From assembly GCA_021781535.1 (NCBI GenBank), contig JAJXWO010000019.1, positions 1 to 64,000 on the forward strand: 64,000 nt of DNA. Direction: 5' to 3'. Within the stretch, counting starts at the first letter, position 1, and the number at the start of each line of letters is the position of its first letter. Below are positions 40,416 through 48,193 of the stretch, in pieces. The stretch is from Deltaproteobacteria bacterium (GTDB taxonomy: Bacteria > Desulfobacterota > Desulfuromonadia > Geobacterales > Pseudopelobacteraceae). A program made the position numbers and the translations under genes. The notes under the pieces are model-generated. The model saw only the letters and a list, made by a program, of their open reading frames with translations. It was not told where the DNA came from and made no database searches.

Positions 40416-40443
40416 ATGTCCCATAAGATATATTATGTCAAGT
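40416..40443. other. Left attachment site, dif-like
   Basis: A 28-bp dif-like site: an 11-base arm ending CATAA, spacer GATATA (40427-40432), and arm TTATGTCAAGT. By hand, 19 of 28 bases agree with E. coli dif. The 12 bases GATATATTATGT recur exactly at the right end of the prophage (48092-48103). Confidence 0.7.
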
Positions 40444-40459
40444 TCGGCAAGTGTGCTTT

Positions 40460-40696: not shown

Positions 40697-40950
40697 ACCT
40701 CCCTAGGCGCAAATCTACTGTAGTAAAAGGCGTAGACCTTACTGGTTCTATTGGTCGCCCTCGTCTGTCTGATCCTTATATTACACATCCTGTTTGCCTT
40801 ACTCGTGCTCAATGGGATTTTGTTATGTTGTGGTTCCCTACTGGCAACCCTTCTCAGGCTCTCCGTTTCCTCCTTGATCGTGCAATGAAATTCTGGCCTG
40901 CTGGCCCTTTCGCTTTCGGTCATGCTCGGAAGTCTGGCGGTACTGTATGA
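40693..40950 (+). CDS. Small phage protein, possible DNA-binding
   Basis: An 85-residue basic protein. RPRLSDPYITHPVCLTRAQWDFVMLW followed by NPSQALRFLLDRAMKF resembles the strand-helix-helix layout of ribbon-helix-helix proteins, without a confident match. Both ends overlap neighbours by 4 bases (ATGA), placing it in a tight operon with the replication initiator. Possible role in copy control. Confidence 0.6.
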   Translation: MNLPRRKSTVVKGVDLTGSIGRPRLSDPYITHPVCLTRAQWDFVMLWFPTGNPSQALRFLLDRAMKFWPAGPFAFGHARKSGGTV

Positions 40951-42146
40951 TTGATACCACCTTACAGCCAAACGGATGCCACAAGCGCCTTTCTCCCCTC
41001 TCCTCAGGGGCAGGTCAAGGGTTTTTGCCTTTGGGCTTGTTACCTGTCCCCAATGTCGGACAAGGGGAAAGGTCAGTTTTAAGCCTTCCGGTTTTAAGGT
41101 CTGAAAAATCGTGGTTTAGTCCTTCGTTTTTGACTTCCGAAATGCCGTTGTTTTTTTCTCGGCAAGCTGCCGCCTATGCCGAGCGAATGGAGAAGAGAGA
41201 AAAAGCTGTTATCACCGTTCCTGAAATTGCAAAGCGTTCCGGATTCGCCTTGCATCGGTATCGTTCCGGTGAACTGACAGGTGCAAGATTCACAACGGGT
41301 TTGACGTCTGCCGTTTCTTTGAATCCTCGCTCCGGTGCTCTTGTCACCCAATCTCTGACACAAAAAGCACGTACTAAAATACGTCGCGCGATTCAAAACG
41401 CTGAACTTGATTTCAAATGTTTCATGACGGTAACATTCGCCCCTTGTAAGTTCCACGAATATCATTCTGATTTCGTTGGCCCCATTGATTATTTAGCTAA
41501 GACTTGCAAACCGTGGGAGCATAACGCTGATGGTTCTGTGCGTCATGATTTCGCCAAATATAAATTCAAAAAATTCTTGAACACTATCAAACATGCTTAT
41601 GATCGTAAGGCGAAAAAATCCGGTCGTGATACTGATCGTATCGCGTATGTATGGGTTGCTGAAGTACAGTTGAAAACTACTAATAATATCCATTTCCACG
41701 CGCTTTTAAGCCAGCGTATGCCTATCAAATGGCTTACCCAAATTTGGAATCAATCATCTAATAGTATCGACGTTCGTTCAATTAATAATCTCAATCACGC
41801 TTCCTGTTACATCCGGAAATATATGGAAAAAGACCGTAGCTTCATTCAGGGCAATCGTTATGCAATCACCCAGGACTTGCGTAAATCGATGGAACCGGAA
41901 AAAACGGTCTTAGATGGTCAACATCTGCAACGGTGCGTTTTTGGCTATATTCTCGATATGGCTGATACTATTGAGCTTAACGGCGGGAAAGTTCTTGACC
42001 ACGGCTTTTATATCCCTACTCCATGCCGGTCTGTTGTATTCCGTGGCAATGACGGCACTACGAAAAAGACTGTTGCTGTCAATGCTGGTCTTTCCAATTA
42101 TCTACTGGATAAAGTTCACGTACTTTTGACTGACTTTCCTTTTTAA
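40947..42146 (+). CDS. HUH rolling-circle replication initiator (inovirus Rep/pII-like)
   Basis: A 399-residue replication protein. The HUH metal motif is in NNIHFHALLSQR (HFH near residue 248), and the catalytic Tyr motif is CYIRKYMEKD near residue 286 (Y-x2-K-Y). An upstream core element FMTVTFAP near residue 153 is the first Rep motif. These match REP_ORF2/G2P-type initiators of filamentous phages, which nick the plus-strand origin and rejoin it after one round. The first ~100 residues are not recognisable. Confidence 0.87.
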   Translation: MIDTTLQPNGCHKRLSPLSSGAGQGFLPLGLLPVPNVGQGERSVLSLPVLRSEKSWFSPSFLTSEMPLFFSRQAAAYAERMEKREKAVITVPEIAKRSGFALHRYRSGELTGARFTTGLTSAVSLNPRSGALVTQSLTQKARTKIRRAIQNAELDFKCFMTVTFAPCKFHEYHSDFVGPIDYLAKTCKPWEHNADGSVRHDFAKYKFKKFLNTIKHAYDRKAKKSGRDTDRIAYVWVAEVQLKTTNNIHFHALLSQRMPIKWLTQIWNQSSNSIDVRSINNLNHASCYIRKYMEKDRSFIQGNRYAITQDLRKSMEPEKTVLDGQHLQRCVFGYILDMADTIELNGGKVLDHGFYIPTPCRSVVFRGNDGTTKKTVAVNAGLSNYLLDKVHVLLTDFPF

Positions 42147-43119: not shown

Positions 43120-43335
43120 ATGTTTAAACGTCTACAAGCAATGGCTCTGGTCGTAATGGTTGTCTGTTTGTCTGCTGTAAGTTCTTTCGCTGCAATGGCT
43201 CCTGCTGATGTTACCGCTACCACTACTGGTATTAGCGATTCTCTGACCCTGTTCTATACGATCGGCGGCACTATTCTTGTTGTCCTCGCCGGTATCTGGG
43301 GTTTCCGCAAAATTACCGGCCTGTTGGGTAAGTAG
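43120..43335 (+). CDS. Major coat protein (pVIII-like)
   Basis: A 71-residue preprotein. Residues 1-24 are a signal peptide (MFKRLQAMALVVMVVCLSAVSSFA), leaving about 47 residues: an acidic/polar start (PADVTATTTGISDS), a membrane helix (LFYTIGGTILVVLAGIWGF) and a basic end (RKITGLLGK), the classic layout of filamentous phage major coat. CCGGAGG precedes the ATG. A terminator follows, as after gene VIII in Ff phages, for high expression. Confidence 0.88.
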   Translation: MFKRLQAMALVVMVVCLSAVSSFAAMAPADVTATTTGISDSLTLFYTIGGTILVVLAGIWGFRKITGLLGK

Positions 43336-43456: not shown

Positions 43457-44791
43457 ATGAAAAAGATTATCATTGCAGTTTTATTAATGTTTACATTGTC
43501 TACTAATGCTTTTGCAATCTTGCCGTTTATTTACGTAATACCTCCTTTGCTCATCCTCGGTGCTGCTGGTACTGCTGGCTTATATTATTATCTTAAACCC
43601 GATGCCCCTGCAAAAGTATCTACTACAGGTGATATTACTCATCCGTCTCAGTCTCAATGGGTTGATCTTACTGCGCCGACTCCTGTGATTGATTTTAAAG
43701 ATATTACTGCTCATATGCCTCTCGATAAACTTCGTGCACTTGCTGATGATAAAACTAAATTCCCTGCTCTGAACGGTGCTTTTAATGGATCATCTGCATT
43801 GACTCCTGCAGTCGGCCTGCCCATTGGTGCCATTGTATCAACTCCAAATGGTGCTCAAGCAATCACACGTATTGATTCTAGCACTTGTCATTTTATTCCT
43901 GCTAGTAATCCTTTATCTGTAGTTGTTAATGCATCATTGACTACTGTTACTGTTTATTCTAATTATGATTCTAACGGGTATGCAAATAGTTATTATAAAA
44001 TGATTTTCGATTTACCTCCTGTTAATCCTCCTATTGTTCCTTATTCAGATAACAAATCAAAACGCGCTTTGGCCGGTTTGCCTCTTAGTAATGACCCTTT
44101 ACCTACTGATTCAATTGTAAAATCTGATTTACAGTCTGAACTTGATAAGGCTTTTCAAGACCCGTCTTATATTCCTGTCTTTACAGATGATACAACCGGA
44201 TTACCTGATATTCCGCCTGACCCTACACACGTTGCTACGCCTGCTCAGATTGATGACTATAATAAGCGTCTTTTAGCATCTAATCCTACTGTTACAACTA
44301 CACAAGGCGCTCCTGTTACCACTAACAATCCCGACGGTACATCTACAACTGTTCGTACTACTACTACAACAACCAATGGCGGCGCTGGTGGAACAACTGT
44401 AAAAACTGAAACCACGACTACCGGCGGCCCTGACGGTACTGGCCCTGTAATAAAAAATGATACTACCGAAGATACTACAGGTGTTCCTGTTCCTCCCGCT
44501 TTGCCTTCTGATAACACGTATGACGGTTTGGGTGATTCTGATAAGCCTTTGTCAAAAAGCATTACTGATCTACTTGGTTCTTTTACTGCTGGCTCTCCAC
44601 TTGTTTCTATGGTTAGAAGTTTTTCTATCACTACTTCTAATGCTTCAGGCGTTGTATCGATTGGTCGCGTCTACGGTCAAGACCTGTCTTTTGACTTTAC
44701 ACATTGGGAGTCGATACTTCGGGCGTGTGGCGGGGTGCTTATTATCATCATGCATGGTTATTGTATTTTGATCGTCGTTAGGGGGTGGTAG
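43457..44791 (+). CDS. pIII-like adsorption protein
   Basis: A 444-residue exported phage protein. Signal peptide 1-19 (cut after NAFA), a hydrophobic segment near 21-45, an unrecognised N-terminal domain to about residue 270, then a long Thr/Gly/Pro-rich linker (residues about 270-345 with repeated TTTT and GG) and a C-terminal helix (ILRACGGVLIIIMHGYCILIVV) that anchors it before virion release. This domain-linker-anchor build is that of pIII, which binds the host receptor. Sequence of the N-terminal domain is expected to vary with host. Confidence 0.78.
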   Translation: MKKIIIAVLLMFTLSTNAFAILPFIYVIPPLLILGAAGTAGLYYYLKPDAPAKVSTTGDITHPSQSQWVDLTAPTPVIDFKDITAHMPLDKLRALADDKTKFPALNGAFNGSSALTPAVGLPIGAIVSTPNGAQAITRIDSSTCHFIPASNPLSVVVNASLTTVTVYSNYDSNGYANSYYKMIFDLPPVNPPIVPYSDNKSKRALAGLPLSNDPLPTDSIVKSDLQSELDKAFQDPSYIPVFTDDTTGLPDIPPDPTHVATPAQIDDYNKRLLASNPTVTTTQGAPVTTNNPDGTSTTVRTTTTTTNGGAGGTTVKTETTTTGGPDGTGPVIKNDTTEDTTGVPVPPALPSDNTYDGLGDSDKPLSKSITDLLGSFTAGSPLVSMVRSFSITTSNASGVVSIGRVYGQDLSFDFTHWESILRACGGVLIIIMHGYCILIVVRGW

Positions 44792-44792
44792 T

Positions 44793-45134
44793 GTGGCTGC
44801 AATACTTACTTTTATAGGTTCTTTTGCTGGCAAAATCTTTGCTGATAAAGTAGTTGGCTGGATTGCTCTCAAAGCTCTATTGGTCTTTCTTTTCATCACT
44901 GTTGTTCCTCTTGTTCTTAATAACTTTCTCTACGACATCATTAAAATAATGATGGATTTTGCCAGTGGTCAAGCTGCCGGTGCTACTGCTTTAAACGGAA
45001 ATATGTCCTTTACTGGCTTTGCTGCATGGCTTATTGAGTGTTTCCGTTTGCCTGAGGCATTTTCTTTGCTGATCTCTGCACTTGTTTTGCGTCTTGTCTT
45101 GTCAATGATTCCATTTGTGAGGTTGGTCGGATGA
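44793..45134 (+). CDS. pVI-like minor coat protein (DUF2523 type)
   Basis: A 113-residue membrane protein starting GTG at 44793, one base past the pIII-like stop. Three helices (about residues 28-45, 72-82 and 90-108) and the place between pIII and Zot genes match pVI/DUF2523 proteins that cap the virion with pIII. It overlaps the following lipoprotein gene by 4 bases. Confidence 0.78.
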   Translation: MAAILTFIGSFAGKIFADKVVGWIALKALLVFLFITVVPLVLNNFLYDIIKIMMDFASGQAAGATALNGNMSFTGFAAWLIECFRLPEAFSLLISALVLRLVLSMIPFVRLVG

Positions 45135-45304: not shown

Positions 45305-46348
45305 ATGCAGGGTATGTGCGTAGGTGTTCCAGGTACTGGCAAATCATTTTTCATGGTCGCTTTTATGAAAAAGTATTTTACTTATGATTCTTTTTTCAGG
45401 ATGTACGAGATTAAGAAAGATGTCCTGATCTTGACTAATATCGCTGGCCTCAAGTTTTTTGGTGCTGATTGCTGGAATGTCGAAAGTCCTGAATTGCTCG
45501 GCTGTGCGAAAGAAGGTATTCCGGGCAAAGTGACGAGGGAGGAGTTTTTCACCGTTCCGAATATGCAGAAGATCATGGATGAAAAAGGGTACAAGAATAT
45601 TATTCTTGTTCTCGATGAGATTCAAAACGATCAATATTTTCCTGCTGGTTATAAAAATTCAGATGTTCTGTATCTATTCCAGTATCATCGGCATATTGGT
45701 ATGCATATTATACTTGGTACTCAGGATCATACACTTATATCAAGGGGTGTTCTTGCGCAATGCGAATGGTTAGCACATGGCAAACTTCGTAGTAAGAAAA
45801 TCATGGGCGGTATGTCATATCGTTTCACCGATAAAAATGGTAATTATCTTTACGACAAAACCTTAAAAGCTGATCAGGATGTATTTCGCGCTTATGACTC
45901 CATGACAACCGAGGAAATAGAAAAGCCCAAAAATGCCGTCTTGCATTGGGCCGTTGTCGTTGTTGTATTTCTTTGCATCGCCGGTGGCCTATTTAAATCA
46001 GCTTTGGCAATCGTTGCAAATAAAGCAAAACCCCAAAACGCTCATACCCAAGTTTCTCCTTCTGCTGCTCAATATGCTGCTACACATCCAATTTTGCCGG
46101 TTGCTACTGTCGCTCCTGTTCCCTCTGTGACTGCTGCTGCAATACAAAAGCCTGTTTCATCCGTTACCGTCCCCGTCGTCCCTTCTGTCGCTAATTCTGT
46201 GCTATCTGGCAATGATCCTGATAAACTTCCTCGCGTTATTGGTCTGGTTGGCGACGCAAATGGTAAGCATACCAAATATCTGCTCTCTACGGGTCAGATA
46301 ACAACGTGTAATCGTTCTCTATCCATTGGTGATGTGTATATCAGGTAA
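45305..46348 (+). CDS. zot: Zot-like (pI) phage assembly ATPase
   Basis: A 347-residue inner-membrane ATPase of the zonular occludens toxin family. Walker A GVPGTGKS lies at residues 7-14, Walker B NIILVLDEIQ near residue 100, and one membrane helix at about 212-232 places the C-terminal Ala/Pro/Val-rich segment in the periplasm. The pI proteins drive phage extrusion and contact the secretin. TTAGGAGGT precedes the ATG. As no phage secretin follows, it must dock to a host secretin. Confidence 0.9.
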   Translation: MQGMCVGVPGTGKSFFMVAFMKKYFTYDSFFRMYEIKKDVLILTNIAGLKFFGADCWNVESPELLGCAKEGIPGKVTREEFFTVPNMQKIMDEKGYKNIILVLDEIQNDQYFPAGYKNSDVLYLFQYHRHIGMHIILGTQDHTLISRGVLAQCEWLAHGKLRSKKIMGGMSYRFTDKNGNYLYDKTLKADQDVFRAYDSMTTEEIEKPKNAVLHWAVVVVVFLCIAGGLFKSALAIVANKAKPQNAHTQVSPSAAQYAATHPILPVATVAPVPSVTAAAIQKPVSSVTVPVVPSVANSVLSGNDPDKLPRVIGLVGDANGKHTKYLLSTGQITTCNRSLSIGDVYIR

Positions 46349-46353
46349 AAAGA

Positions 46354-46405
46354 ACAGCCCACGTCAGGCGGCGCTATGAGCCGCAAAACGTGGGCTGTTT
46401 TTTTT
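46354..46405 (+). terminator. Terminator after zot
   Basis: ACAGCCCACGT (46354-46364) pairs with ACGTGGGCTGT (46388-46398); between them GCGGC/GCCGC forms an inner hairpin; a run of T to 46405 follows. It ends the structural operon. Confidence 0.9.
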
Positions 46406-46634
46406 GAAGTAATATTTCATCGATAGTTTTTTCTGTTGCTGGCGGTCGTCCCGCCCTCTGACCGCCTTCGGCTAATTTGACGTGATGATCCGCGCTGGTC
46501 TGCTGTCCTGTATTCACTGTCCTCCCGATCGTGTCCTAAACAACCTGTTTTTGTCTTTCGTTGCCGTTCCGACAGATACCATAAACCGTCTGACGCCGAA
46601 TGGCGGCGTTTTAGAGGTTTCGTTAGTTATTCAT
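46406..46634 (+). other. Phage non-coding region, candidate origin/packaging signal
   Basis: About 230 bases between the zot terminator and the convergent retropepsin gene. It contains GGCGGTC...GACCGCC (46441-46466) and ACGCCG-AATGG-CGGCGT, two GC hairpins in otherwise T-rich sequence. Inoviruses keep the plus-strand origin and packaging hairpin in such a gap, so this is the best candidate here. Confidence 0.5.
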
Positions 46635-47264
46635 TTACATCCATTTGATTGTTTGTGTTTTTAGATTAATCATGTGAGGGAAATCACCGAGGAAGCTCAT
46701 TCCTAGTAAACCTGTTTCTTCAAATCCAGCACCTATTATGTGTATTTCTGTTGGTTTCTTCGTTTTTGGCCCGACTGCAACAAAATCAACTGTTGCAGTG
46801 TTTGTCCCTACTTTACTCCCGTCTGCTAGTTGCGATAAACCTTGCTTCGTATCTTCTGGCTTTATTCCTAATCGTATTGCTAATGCTGGAGATATTGTTA
46901 CTCCTGTTGCTCCAGTGTCTATTAGTAGTGGAACGGTTACCATTCTCCCTCTATATCCTATCGTTACAGGTACAAACATTTGATTTCCGCTTAAAGTTAT
47001 TGCTGTTTCTTTTTCGTTGTTTATTGGCTGCTGCATTTCTTGTGCTTTTTCAGCTATTGGCTTTTTTACTATTTCCAGTATTTCTGCCACTTGGTCTGCT
47101 GACATAGCGTGTGTGATCTCTGGCCCTTTCAATTCTTCCACTGTCTTTTTAAATAGTAATTTCGTTAGATCAGTTCTGAAAACGAAAACGGCAATAATCC
47201 CTATCATAGCCGTATATCTTATTAAATTTCCTACTGGTGTTGTTTTGAATCTTAATTTTATCAT
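46635..47264 (-). CDS. Membrane-anchored retropepsin-like aspartic protease
   Basis: A 209-residue protein. A basic N-terminus and one helix (about residues 18-29, AMIGIIAVFVF) suggest the C-terminal part faces the periplasm. The retropepsin domain spans about 95-205: LLIDTGATGVTIS with catalytic Asp116-Thr117-Gly118, and the hydrophobic-hydrophobic-Gly element LLGMSFLGDF near 186-195. A single DTG means it must dimerise. Its ATG overlaps the XRE repressor stop by 4 bases, so both are made from one leftward transcript. Such proteases are not standard inovirus genes; target unknown. Confidence 0.82.
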   Translation of the reverse strand: MIKLRFKTTPVGNLIRYTAMIGIIAVFVFRTDLTKLLFKKTVEELKGPEITHAMSADQVAEILEIVKKPIAEKAQEMQQPINNEKETAITLSGNQMFVPVTIGYRGRMVTVPLLIDTGATGVTISPALAIRLGIKPEDTKQGLSQLADGSKVGTNTATVDFVAVGPKTKKPTEIHIIGAGFEETGLLGMSFLGDFPHMINLKTQTIKWM

Positions 47265-47470
47265 TTATTTCCCTTTATTTTTTCTTCCTCAATATCTTCA
47301 ATTATCCATTTAATCTTTTTTCCCACTGCTTTTGCGATCTTCTCCAATATTTCCGGTTTTGGAAATCGTCCGGCTTCGTATCTTGATATTGCGTCTTGAG
47401 CTATTCCACTCAGTTCTGCAAGTTCTTTCTGCGTTAGCTTCCCTCTTAGTTTTTTAACTATATTTTCCAT
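47261..47470 (-). CDS. XRE-family phage repressor
   Basis: A 69-residue helix-turn-helix protein: LRGKLTQKELAELSGIAQDAISRYEAGRFPKPEILEKIAKAVGKKI is a full HTH_3 domain. ATG 47470 is chosen because GGAGGG sits just upstream; ATG 47512 lacks this. It is divergent from the rightward gene at 47567, the arrangement of a lysogeny repressor over its operator. Too short to carry its own cleavage or dimerisation domain. Confidence 0.85.
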   Translation of the reverse strand: MENIVKKLRGKLTQKELAELSGIAQDAISRYEAGRFPKPEILEKIAKAVGKKIKWIIEDIEEEKIKGNK

Positions 47471-47505
47471 GCTCCCTCCATTATTGGTTTTTGCCATATT
47501 GCATA

Positions 47506-47534
47506 TTGACATATTTCAGAATAACATATATACG
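47506..47534 (+). promoter_or_regulatory. Rightward phage promoter beside the repressor
   Basis: TTGACA (47506-47511) and TATACG (47529-47534) are 17 bases apart and precede the gene at 47567. TTGCATAT occurs on both sides (near 47499 and 47535), a likely repressor operator repeat in the divergent region. Confidence 0.6.
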
Positions 47535-47566
47535 TTGCATATCTTAAATTAAACGGAGGTCACAAA

Positions 47567-47734
47567 ATGAAGCGCAATCGAAAGATACTCGTCTGTATGA
47601 ATGATGCTGAATTCGCTGCACTTGAATCGTTGGAGAAGATTTATTCCTTGGATGGTGCTCGCGCAACTAAAAGTTTTCTTGTCCGTTATGCCCTTAAGCG
47701 CCTCCCACATCAGTCTATCATCTTACCAGCCTAA
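47567..47734 (+). CDS. Small phage protein, possible ribbon-helix-helix
   Basis: A 55-residue basic protein: RKILVCMNDAEFAALESLEKIYSL then ATKSFLVRYALKRLP, a pattern of strand and two helices like Arc/CopG regulators. CGGAGGT precedes the ATG. First gene of the rightward operon from the divergent promoter; its stop overlaps the next start (TAATG). Confidence 0.65.
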   Translation: MKRNRKILVCMNDAEFAALESLEKIYSLDGARATKSFLVRYALKRLPHQSIILPA

Positions 47735-48084
47735 TGAAATACACAATTGAAAATAAAGGCACTGGCGTTGTCCTGATTCGCGCCTTTGTCCCTGAACACA
47801 TGGCCGCTTCTTTCCTCGCGTTCATTGAATCAAAAAGCCGTGAAAATCCTCCGATTGTAAGAAAGTCCTCACATGAGAAAAATGAGGAATATTTTAAAGA
47901 GTTGAAAGCTGCCGCCCTCGCCTCTTTCAACGCCTGTCAAGCTGCTGGATTAGCCGCAAATGCTTCTATTTCGGAAGTAAATAAAAAATTAAAGGTGCTC
48001 GGCTTTTTTAATACATCGTATGATTCTGTACGCTCTCTTTTGACTCAACAAGGTTGTTTCCGGTCAAAAAGTCCGTTCAAATAG
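47734..48084 (+). CDS. Phage protein of unknown function
   Basis: A 116-residue protein with no recognised domain. Charged middle (ESKSRENPPIVRKSSHEKNEEYFKELK) and a C-terminal part (ISEVNKKLKVLGFFNTSYDSVRSLLTQQGCF) that could form a helix-turn-helix. Its ATG overlaps the previous stop. It ends 7 bases before the right attachment core, so in the circular phage it would be followed after 40 bases by the gene at 40460 and then by rep. Confidence 0.6.
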   Translation: MKYTIENKGTGVVLIRAFVPEHMAASFLAFIESKSRENPPIVRKSSHEKNEEYFKELKAAALASFNACQAAGLAANASISEVNKKLKVLGFFNTSYDSVRSLLTQQGCFRSKSPFK

Positions 48085-48108
48085 TTCATTCGATATATTA
48101 TGTAAAGT
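48081..48108. other. Right attachment site, dif-like
   Basis: GATATA spacer (48092-48097) and arm TTATGTAAAGT (48098-48108), close to the XerD arm of dif. The left arm (ending CATTC) is less like dif than at the left site, so it probably came from the phage. The exact shared core with 40427-40438 is 12 bases. Confidence 0.65.
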
Positions 48109-48193
48109 TTAATTACAAGAGTTGATTGTTTTAATCAAACTTGATGATCAGTTGTTGCCAAGGCAATCCCATCGCTTTTTCAATATACGATTA

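Follow-up and report, generated by a model that had tools for sequence, protein, structure and literature searches.

The 64,000-nucleotide stretch of DNA analysed here (the window) harbours the prophage of a filamentous phage whose repressor operon encodes a membrane-anchored, retropepsin-like aspartic protease of 209 aa (46635..47264, − strand). Comparison with related prophages indicates that the protease gene is one of several interchangeable cargos of this operon. We tentatively favour an accessory envelope protease providing superinfection exclusion or phage defence, a reading that we rate slightly short of an even chance; it ranks ahead of conversion of the host, followed by control of the prophage and finally maturation of the virion. 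The pair of genes that an earlier sequence-only reading had pointed out is real: a 69-aa XRE/HTH_3 repressor (47261..47470, − strand; HTH_3 49.9 bits; weak similarity to RstR with 35.3 bits at a cut-off of 80) overlaps the protease gene by 4 bp on the same strand, in agreement with the proposed co-transcription.

The prophage (~7.67 kb) is bounded by two dif-like repeats of 23 bp (40422..40444 and 48087..48109, both + strand; 87 % identity, spacing 7665) and is flanked by efp with an adjacent small infA-like gene on one side and by a hybrid histidine kinase gene on the other. In the sister genome G012, one unoccupied copy of the repeat is located beside the same infA/efp genes (L020:10241), marking the window locus as a real integration site. 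Paired repeats are also present at L028, L018, L157, L161 and L172, and a single one at the contig end of L029; none were seen at L158 and L019. By comparison with the dif sequence, we take the site to be dif, with Xer enzymes presumably acting on it. Xer recombinases integrate Vibrio phages, and by analogy may also integrate phages of the window type. The source genome was binned from a metagenome (completeness 95 %, contamination 8.9 %); despite this contamination the contig probably belongs to its bin, since both flanks of the prophage are 86–97 % like those in the related genome G026 (BLASTN). The host is a sediment bacterium and the element a dif-integrating phage of Desulfuromonadaceae/Geobacteraceae.

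The assignment to filamentous phages (inoviruses), already made from the letters of the DNA, is borne out by a Zot/pI ATPase, Rep as well as coat and pVI-like proteins encoded in one block on the + strand: (i) a rolling-circle replication protein of the G2P type (Rep, 40947..42146; PF23343, 37.4 bits at a cut-off of 27.8), (ii) the probable major coat protein (43120..43335; PHROG major head protein, 3.5e-5), (iii) a large secreted protein (43457..44791) in the position of the adsorption protein (pIII), judged from this position and an N-terminal signal-like stretch recognized by eye, with nothing above cut-off in Pfam and PHROG, (iv) a pVI-like minor coat protein (44793..45134; phrog_974, 9e-6; DUF2523 below cut-off), and (v) the Zot/pI assembly ATPase (45305..46348; PF05707, 38.7 bits at a cut-off of 20.3). 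Between zot and the protease gene, a long hairpin followed by a T-tract (46349..46405) probably serves as terminator. The fold of 46349-46634 has a z-score of −3.85 (none of 200 shuffles equally stable); a simple terminator scan placed a single site in 46349..46405, on the − strand, against 1.6 in shuffled sequence and hence without excess. The non-coding, hairpin-rich stretch 46401-46631 is 81 % conserved with G026 and might represent a packaging signal or a replication origin.

Divergent from the repressor operon, two further phage genes on the + strand complete the prophage, namely a small conserved one (47567..47734; ribbon-helix-helix-like by eye, no Pfam match; 65 % identity to G030, 44 % to G026) and the last gene of the prophage (47734..48084; 95 % identity to G026, 43 % to G030). 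A distant homologue of the latter is found just left of the dif-like repeat at L018:1852-2375, which suggests a tandem arrangement with a second filamentous prophage. The gap between the divergent units (47471..47566) is a putative operator/promoter region, in which a repeat scan run without shuffle control gave imperfect repeats of 12-13 bp and exact ones of 7-8 bp. Compared with the corresponding gap in G026 (BLASTN), it is similar at its ends only, 24 bp at 47546-47569 being identical. A simple promoter scan gave one weak site, which is located within the protease gene and scores below the shuffle mean.

The protease matches PF13975/PF13650 above cut-off, and its predicted structure (single chain) displays the retropepsin fold including the core that the sequence-only reading had assumed; no PHROG family was matched. 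The retropepsin domain comprises residues 85-209 (46638..47012, − strand) with the catalytic DTG motif at residues 116-118 (46911..46919, − strand). Neither the active-site motif DTG(A/S) nor the second, Gly-bearing motif LLG varies among the 48 aligned rows, which were picked after a motif filter. By these motifs the active site is intact; its formation would require a homodimer, so that dimerization and proteolytic activity are presumed features. The single N-terminal membrane helix noted before was recovered by structure model and hydropathy (residues 10-30; 47175..47237, − strand).

The earlier placement of the active site in the periplasm, based on a positive-inside N-terminus, is still favoured, yet the charge argument has become less sure: among ten membrane-type proteins, the K/R counts around the helix speak clearly for N-inside in only three (L029, L019, L176), whereas they are nearly balanced in the window protein, L157, L177 and L036 and point the other way in L018, L158 and L173. 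Zinc ribbons, normally cytoplasmic domains, precede the helix in L029, L019 and L173 (all below cut-off), and the N-termini of the non-phage homologues L020, L022 and L024 resemble signal peptides. Taken together with the K/R counts, the zinc ribbons and the starts of L020 and L022 favour a protease domain in the periplasm and an N-terminus in the cytoplasm, least firmly for the window protein, which has only nine residues ahead of its helix. With respect to a cleaved N-terminal signal peptide, a mark of RloA of Pseudomonas, the structure model keeps this stretch of the window protein as a 21-residue helix, inside which a weak AXA-like triplet is located.

The closest relative of the window phage, integrated at the same site in G026 (L028), is informative on the relation between repressor and protease. 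Its Rep (79 % identity), major coat protein (90 %), pVI-like protein (74 %), XRE repressor (73 %) and last gene product (95 %) correspond to those of the window, and the protease gene alone is replaced by a gene for a 67-aa zinc-ribbon protein (PF01396, 32.8 bits at a cut-off of 32), overlapping the XRE gene as ATGA. At the DNA level, similarity is 81 % up to 46631, vanishes over 46632-47273 and resumes with the XRE gene (BLASTN). Since the repressor is kept in G026 without the protease, it apparently does not need the latter; the claim of a repressor-protease regulatory pair as such is therefore not supported, and an obligate pair was dropped in view of this gene swap. One may still imagine that the membrane protein reports the envelope state to the co-transcribed repressor via its cytoplasmic N-terminus or, in the case of a reversed orientation, acts directly on the repressor. 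Such prophage control agrees with overlapping or adjoining HTH and protease genes in all five phages with this pair, with the zinc ribbon ahead of the helix in L029, and with a charge distribution that does not settle the orientation of the window protein. We nevertheless consider it improbable, given the persistence of XRE in G026, the different types of the five HTH genes, and the nine residues preceding the helix in the window protein.

The same comparison bears on processing of virion proteins, which had been proposed as another role. A protease trimming coat or adsorption proteins at assembly would be suitably placed in the envelope, its likely location and the site of coat insertion and assembly. 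However, coat and pVI-like proteins of G026 are little changed although the protease gene is missing, the protease is encoded on the transcript opposite to that of the structural genes, and retropepsins are absent from 15 of 19 Zot places (see below). Coat maturation is thus disfavoured, in particular as an essential function, and virion maturation in general appears very improbable.

The HTH-protease operon recurs in five phages, i.e., in the window, G030 (L018), G138 (L157), G124 (L158) and the IMG/VR locus L029, in line with the conservation in other prophages expected if the pair is meaningful. The two genes overlap by 4 bp in the window, L158 and L029 and by 8 bp in L018, and directly adjoin in L157. 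The HTH proteins belong to HTH_3 in three phages and to Phage_CI_repr in L158, while that of L029 has no Pfam match (61 % identity to the HTH_3 protein of L157). In four of the five phages, the protease and zot genes are adjacent and convergent; in L158, the pair is located at the far end from zot, which is adjoined by tRNA-Arg. Should this tRNA gene serve as attachment site, protease and zot genes would again converge in the circular form of the phage.

Among 141 genomes of the order, Zot was found at 19 places in 18 genomes and the retropepsin profile in 117 genomes, its weakest rows covering a DUF4124-like part only; by hand count, 90 places among the matches listed have E < 1e-20, followed by a gap to the weak rows. 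A membrane retropepsin behind an HTH gene in the same element occurs at four of the 19 Zot places (window, L018, L157 and L158), compared to ~0.05 coincidences expected by chance (90 strong places, 8 kb either side of 19 Zot genes, ~540 Mb); the fetched loci of the other 15 places contained no match to the profile. In the search for Zot outside the order, 24 of 395 genomes matched, four of them again belonging to the order (G000, G109, G124, G138). None of nine places taken from the stronger ones outside the order had a retropepsin, with several of these loci ending near zot and the slot partly out of view; one of the outside places (L215) may not represent a true Zot. Scans of viral contigs with the window protease, Rep, the product of orf47734 and the L158 protease retrieved no relative, the L029 protease retrieved only L029 itself, and the A1 profile three loci, one of which has zot. 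A genome-contig scan gave 77 loci, with zot detected by our HMMs only in L034. Phage records searched with the window and L029 proteases, and plasmids searched with the L018 protease, gave no match.

The slot occupied by the protease gene is variable. Where Pfam supports an HTH gene in the slot (11 Zot places), the latter contains a retropepsin (four), PLDc_N (two), PLDc_N plus zinc ribbon, a zinc ribbon alone, DUF2726, AAA_21 with DUF4276 and a zinc-ribbon Mrr protein, or no cargo (one each). The other eight places have a zinc ribbon beside zot in four cases (G119, G133:C266, G134 and G122; the G119 copy on the zot strand), DUF4160 and DUF2442 with a weak HTH in G107, a small unmatched ORF in G109, and nothing or a contig end in G017 and G133:C250. 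Zinc ribbons exceed the Pfam cut-off only in L028, L163 and L164; those of L159, L161, L165, L168 and L029 score below it (18-29 bits) and were recognized by an own small profile or visible cysteines. Topoisomerase-type zinc-ribbon ORFs, alone or fused, recur beside zot (L028:10945-11148, L163:8827-9033, L164:5851-6045, L165:7083-7355 and L168:9291-9545). In two filamentous phages elsewhere in the phylum (L211:10370-11628 and L216:3270-4818), a gene resembling DUF2726 comes after an HTH-like one (by eye), suggesting a general slot.

The XRE, AAA_21, DUF4276 and Mrr nuclease genes in G116 (L161:6317-9251; Mrr with a weak zinc ribbon) form an apparent multi-gene defence cluster within an inovirus; the AAA_21 protein matches AbiLi (1.3e-18) and AriA models, the Mrr protein PDC-S02 and type IV restriction models. 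Exchange is further suggested by L157 and L029, whose HTH-retropepsin cassettes share DNA pieces of 78-81 % identity on backbones with Zot proteins of only 28 % identity. For their proteases, dN is 0.217 and dS 1.30 (dN/dS 0.17); the other protease pairs were saturated (dS 2.1 to 4.4) or gave no usable value. The cassette thus appears to be traded between phage backbones and kept functional.

Membrane-anchored relatives also occur outside recognizable phages. One (L019, G026) shares its contig with genes resembling those of recombinases and integrases (by eye). At L177:2983-4678 (G137), a membrane Mrr-type nuclease with zinc ribbon is encoded directly upstream of a membrane retropepsin and adjoining SbcCD-like genes (by eye), a candidate defence operon; L176:4743-7822 (G113) comprises an XRE-like tail upstream (by eye), an ORC-CDC6-like ATPase and a membrane retropepsin, with an integrase-like gene nearby. 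Those of L173 (G107) and L036 have ordinary-looking chromosomal surroundings without evident mobile genes. In the tree, the phage proteases split between two clades interspersed with non-phage rows, so that several transfers, in either direction, are likely; a single capture event was rejected, as the phage copies do not form one clade. The phage label requires four changes, three of them forced by starred branches, and 75 of 500 shuffles were as low, i.e., clustering is not significant.

Homologues outside phages are of relevance for lysogenic conversion, by which a captured host-type periplasmic retropepsin would alter envelope, biofilm or stress traits and thereby pay for the prophage, with exclusion only as by-product. 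The mixed clades, the wide occurrence of the profile in the order and the signal-peptide-like starts of L020, L022 and L024 are compatible with such an origin. One of these genes (L020:11073-11642, G012) is located 0.8 kb from the single, empty dif-like site and is possibly the donor of the phage gene or a remnant of one. Moreover, an influence on osmotic tolerance and biofilm is described for RloA proteases (PMC12239564). On the other hand, one relative has nuclease/ATPase genes in the same slot and others have zinc ribbons, and the phage copies retain the membrane helix in the model rather than a plain secreted form. Host conversion is therefore possible, though we consider it unlikely.

Superinfection exclusion or phage defence is favoured because the protease is dispensable for repressor and structural genes in the nearest relative and because defence-type genes occupy one sister slot; this also supports the earlier preference for exclusion over cleavage of the repressor. 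The recurrence of the operon, the traded cassette, the intact active site and the neighbours of the membrane-anchored relatives L177 and L176 outside zot loci likewise speak for this reading. Co-transcription with the repressor suggests expression in the lysogen, where the product of this exchangeable accessory gene would be translated alongside the repressor for as long as the prophage stays silent. Presumably anchored in the inner membrane through its single helix, with few residues on the cytoplasmic side and a dimerizing aspartic protease domain in the periplasm, it would most likely cleave a periplasmic or membrane-exposed protein needed by an incoming phage. Candidate substrates are entry factors of the host, e.g., Tol or pilus components, and the adsorption protein of the invader. 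The lysogen would thereby gain superinfection exclusion or phage defence. The mixed topology counts, the relatives in ordinary chromosomal settings (L173, L036), the Zot places without retropepsin (15 within the order, nine outside) and the lack of significant clustering of the phage label count against this reading.

A specific link to the PADLOC system PDC-M08 was dropped: the window protease matches PDC-M08B with 27 bits, less than the 39.6 bits reached by a host homologue, and PDC-M08A is not among the 17 matches of the window XRE. As for precedents, two of ten tested inovirus proteins caused exclusion (Roux et al. 2019, PMC6813254), and the main text of this survey contains neither "protease" nor "peptidase"; likewise, the word "protease" is absent from a review on superinfection exclusion (PMC11436027). 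KKP of Pf prophages is described as a filamentous-prophage module joining lysogeny control and defence (PMC11341870). The characterised bacterial retropepsins, e.g., RloA, act in envelope physiology (PMC12239564), which counts against exclusion. Our literature search found no anti-phage retropepsin; no paper in the searched collection mentions retropepsins together with inoviruses, or treats them as aspartic proteases together with phages and prophages.

One may speculate, with considerable doubt, that membrane-tethered retropepsins represent a new class of phage-exclusion effectors. They would form a mobile inner-membrane family whose members differ in their cytoplasmic portion and carry an HIV-protease-like domain on the periplasmic side. 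Filamentous phages would exchange them as one cassette together with the repressor, which would equip every lysogen with an immunity and an envelope protease of its own. Where the cytoplasmic portion is a topoisomerase-type zinc ribbon, it could serve to bind phage DNA at the membrane. If exclusion is true, filamentous phages, among the smallest viruses, turn a periplasmic HIV-protease-like enzyme against competitors. Even without it, the repressor operon constitutes a defined variable slot, the cargo of which can be mined for exclusion genes.

ImmR/ImmA is a repressor-metalloprotease pair, with the gene of a small HTH repressor beside that of a zinc protease. The window pair shares this arrangement, but its protease is aspartic rather than zinc-dependent by family and fold, its active site is probably outside the cytoplasm, and its repressor is conserved without the protease. 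In CTX-type filamentous prophages, the RstR repressor region is a region of accessory genes; Pf/CTX-type prophages resemble the window prophage in having a repressor with neighbouring accessory genes and dif-type integration. An N-terminal membrane helix is usual in TIGR02281 (clan_AA_DTGA), the best NCBIfam match of the window protease, yet below the curated cut-off (42.5 vs 57.95 bits). The cargo of the window prophage is a membrane protease, in contrast to the kinases and phosphatase of KKP in Pf (PMC11341870). With the retropepsin-like bacterial proteases of clan AA (APRc of Rickettsia conorii, RloA of Pseudomonas), the window protease has the DTG(A/S) and LLG motifs and the predicted fold in common; it contains no cysteines, whereas periplasmic RloA orthologues conserve two (PMC12239564), and it differs from these proteases in being phage-encoded within a repressor operon.
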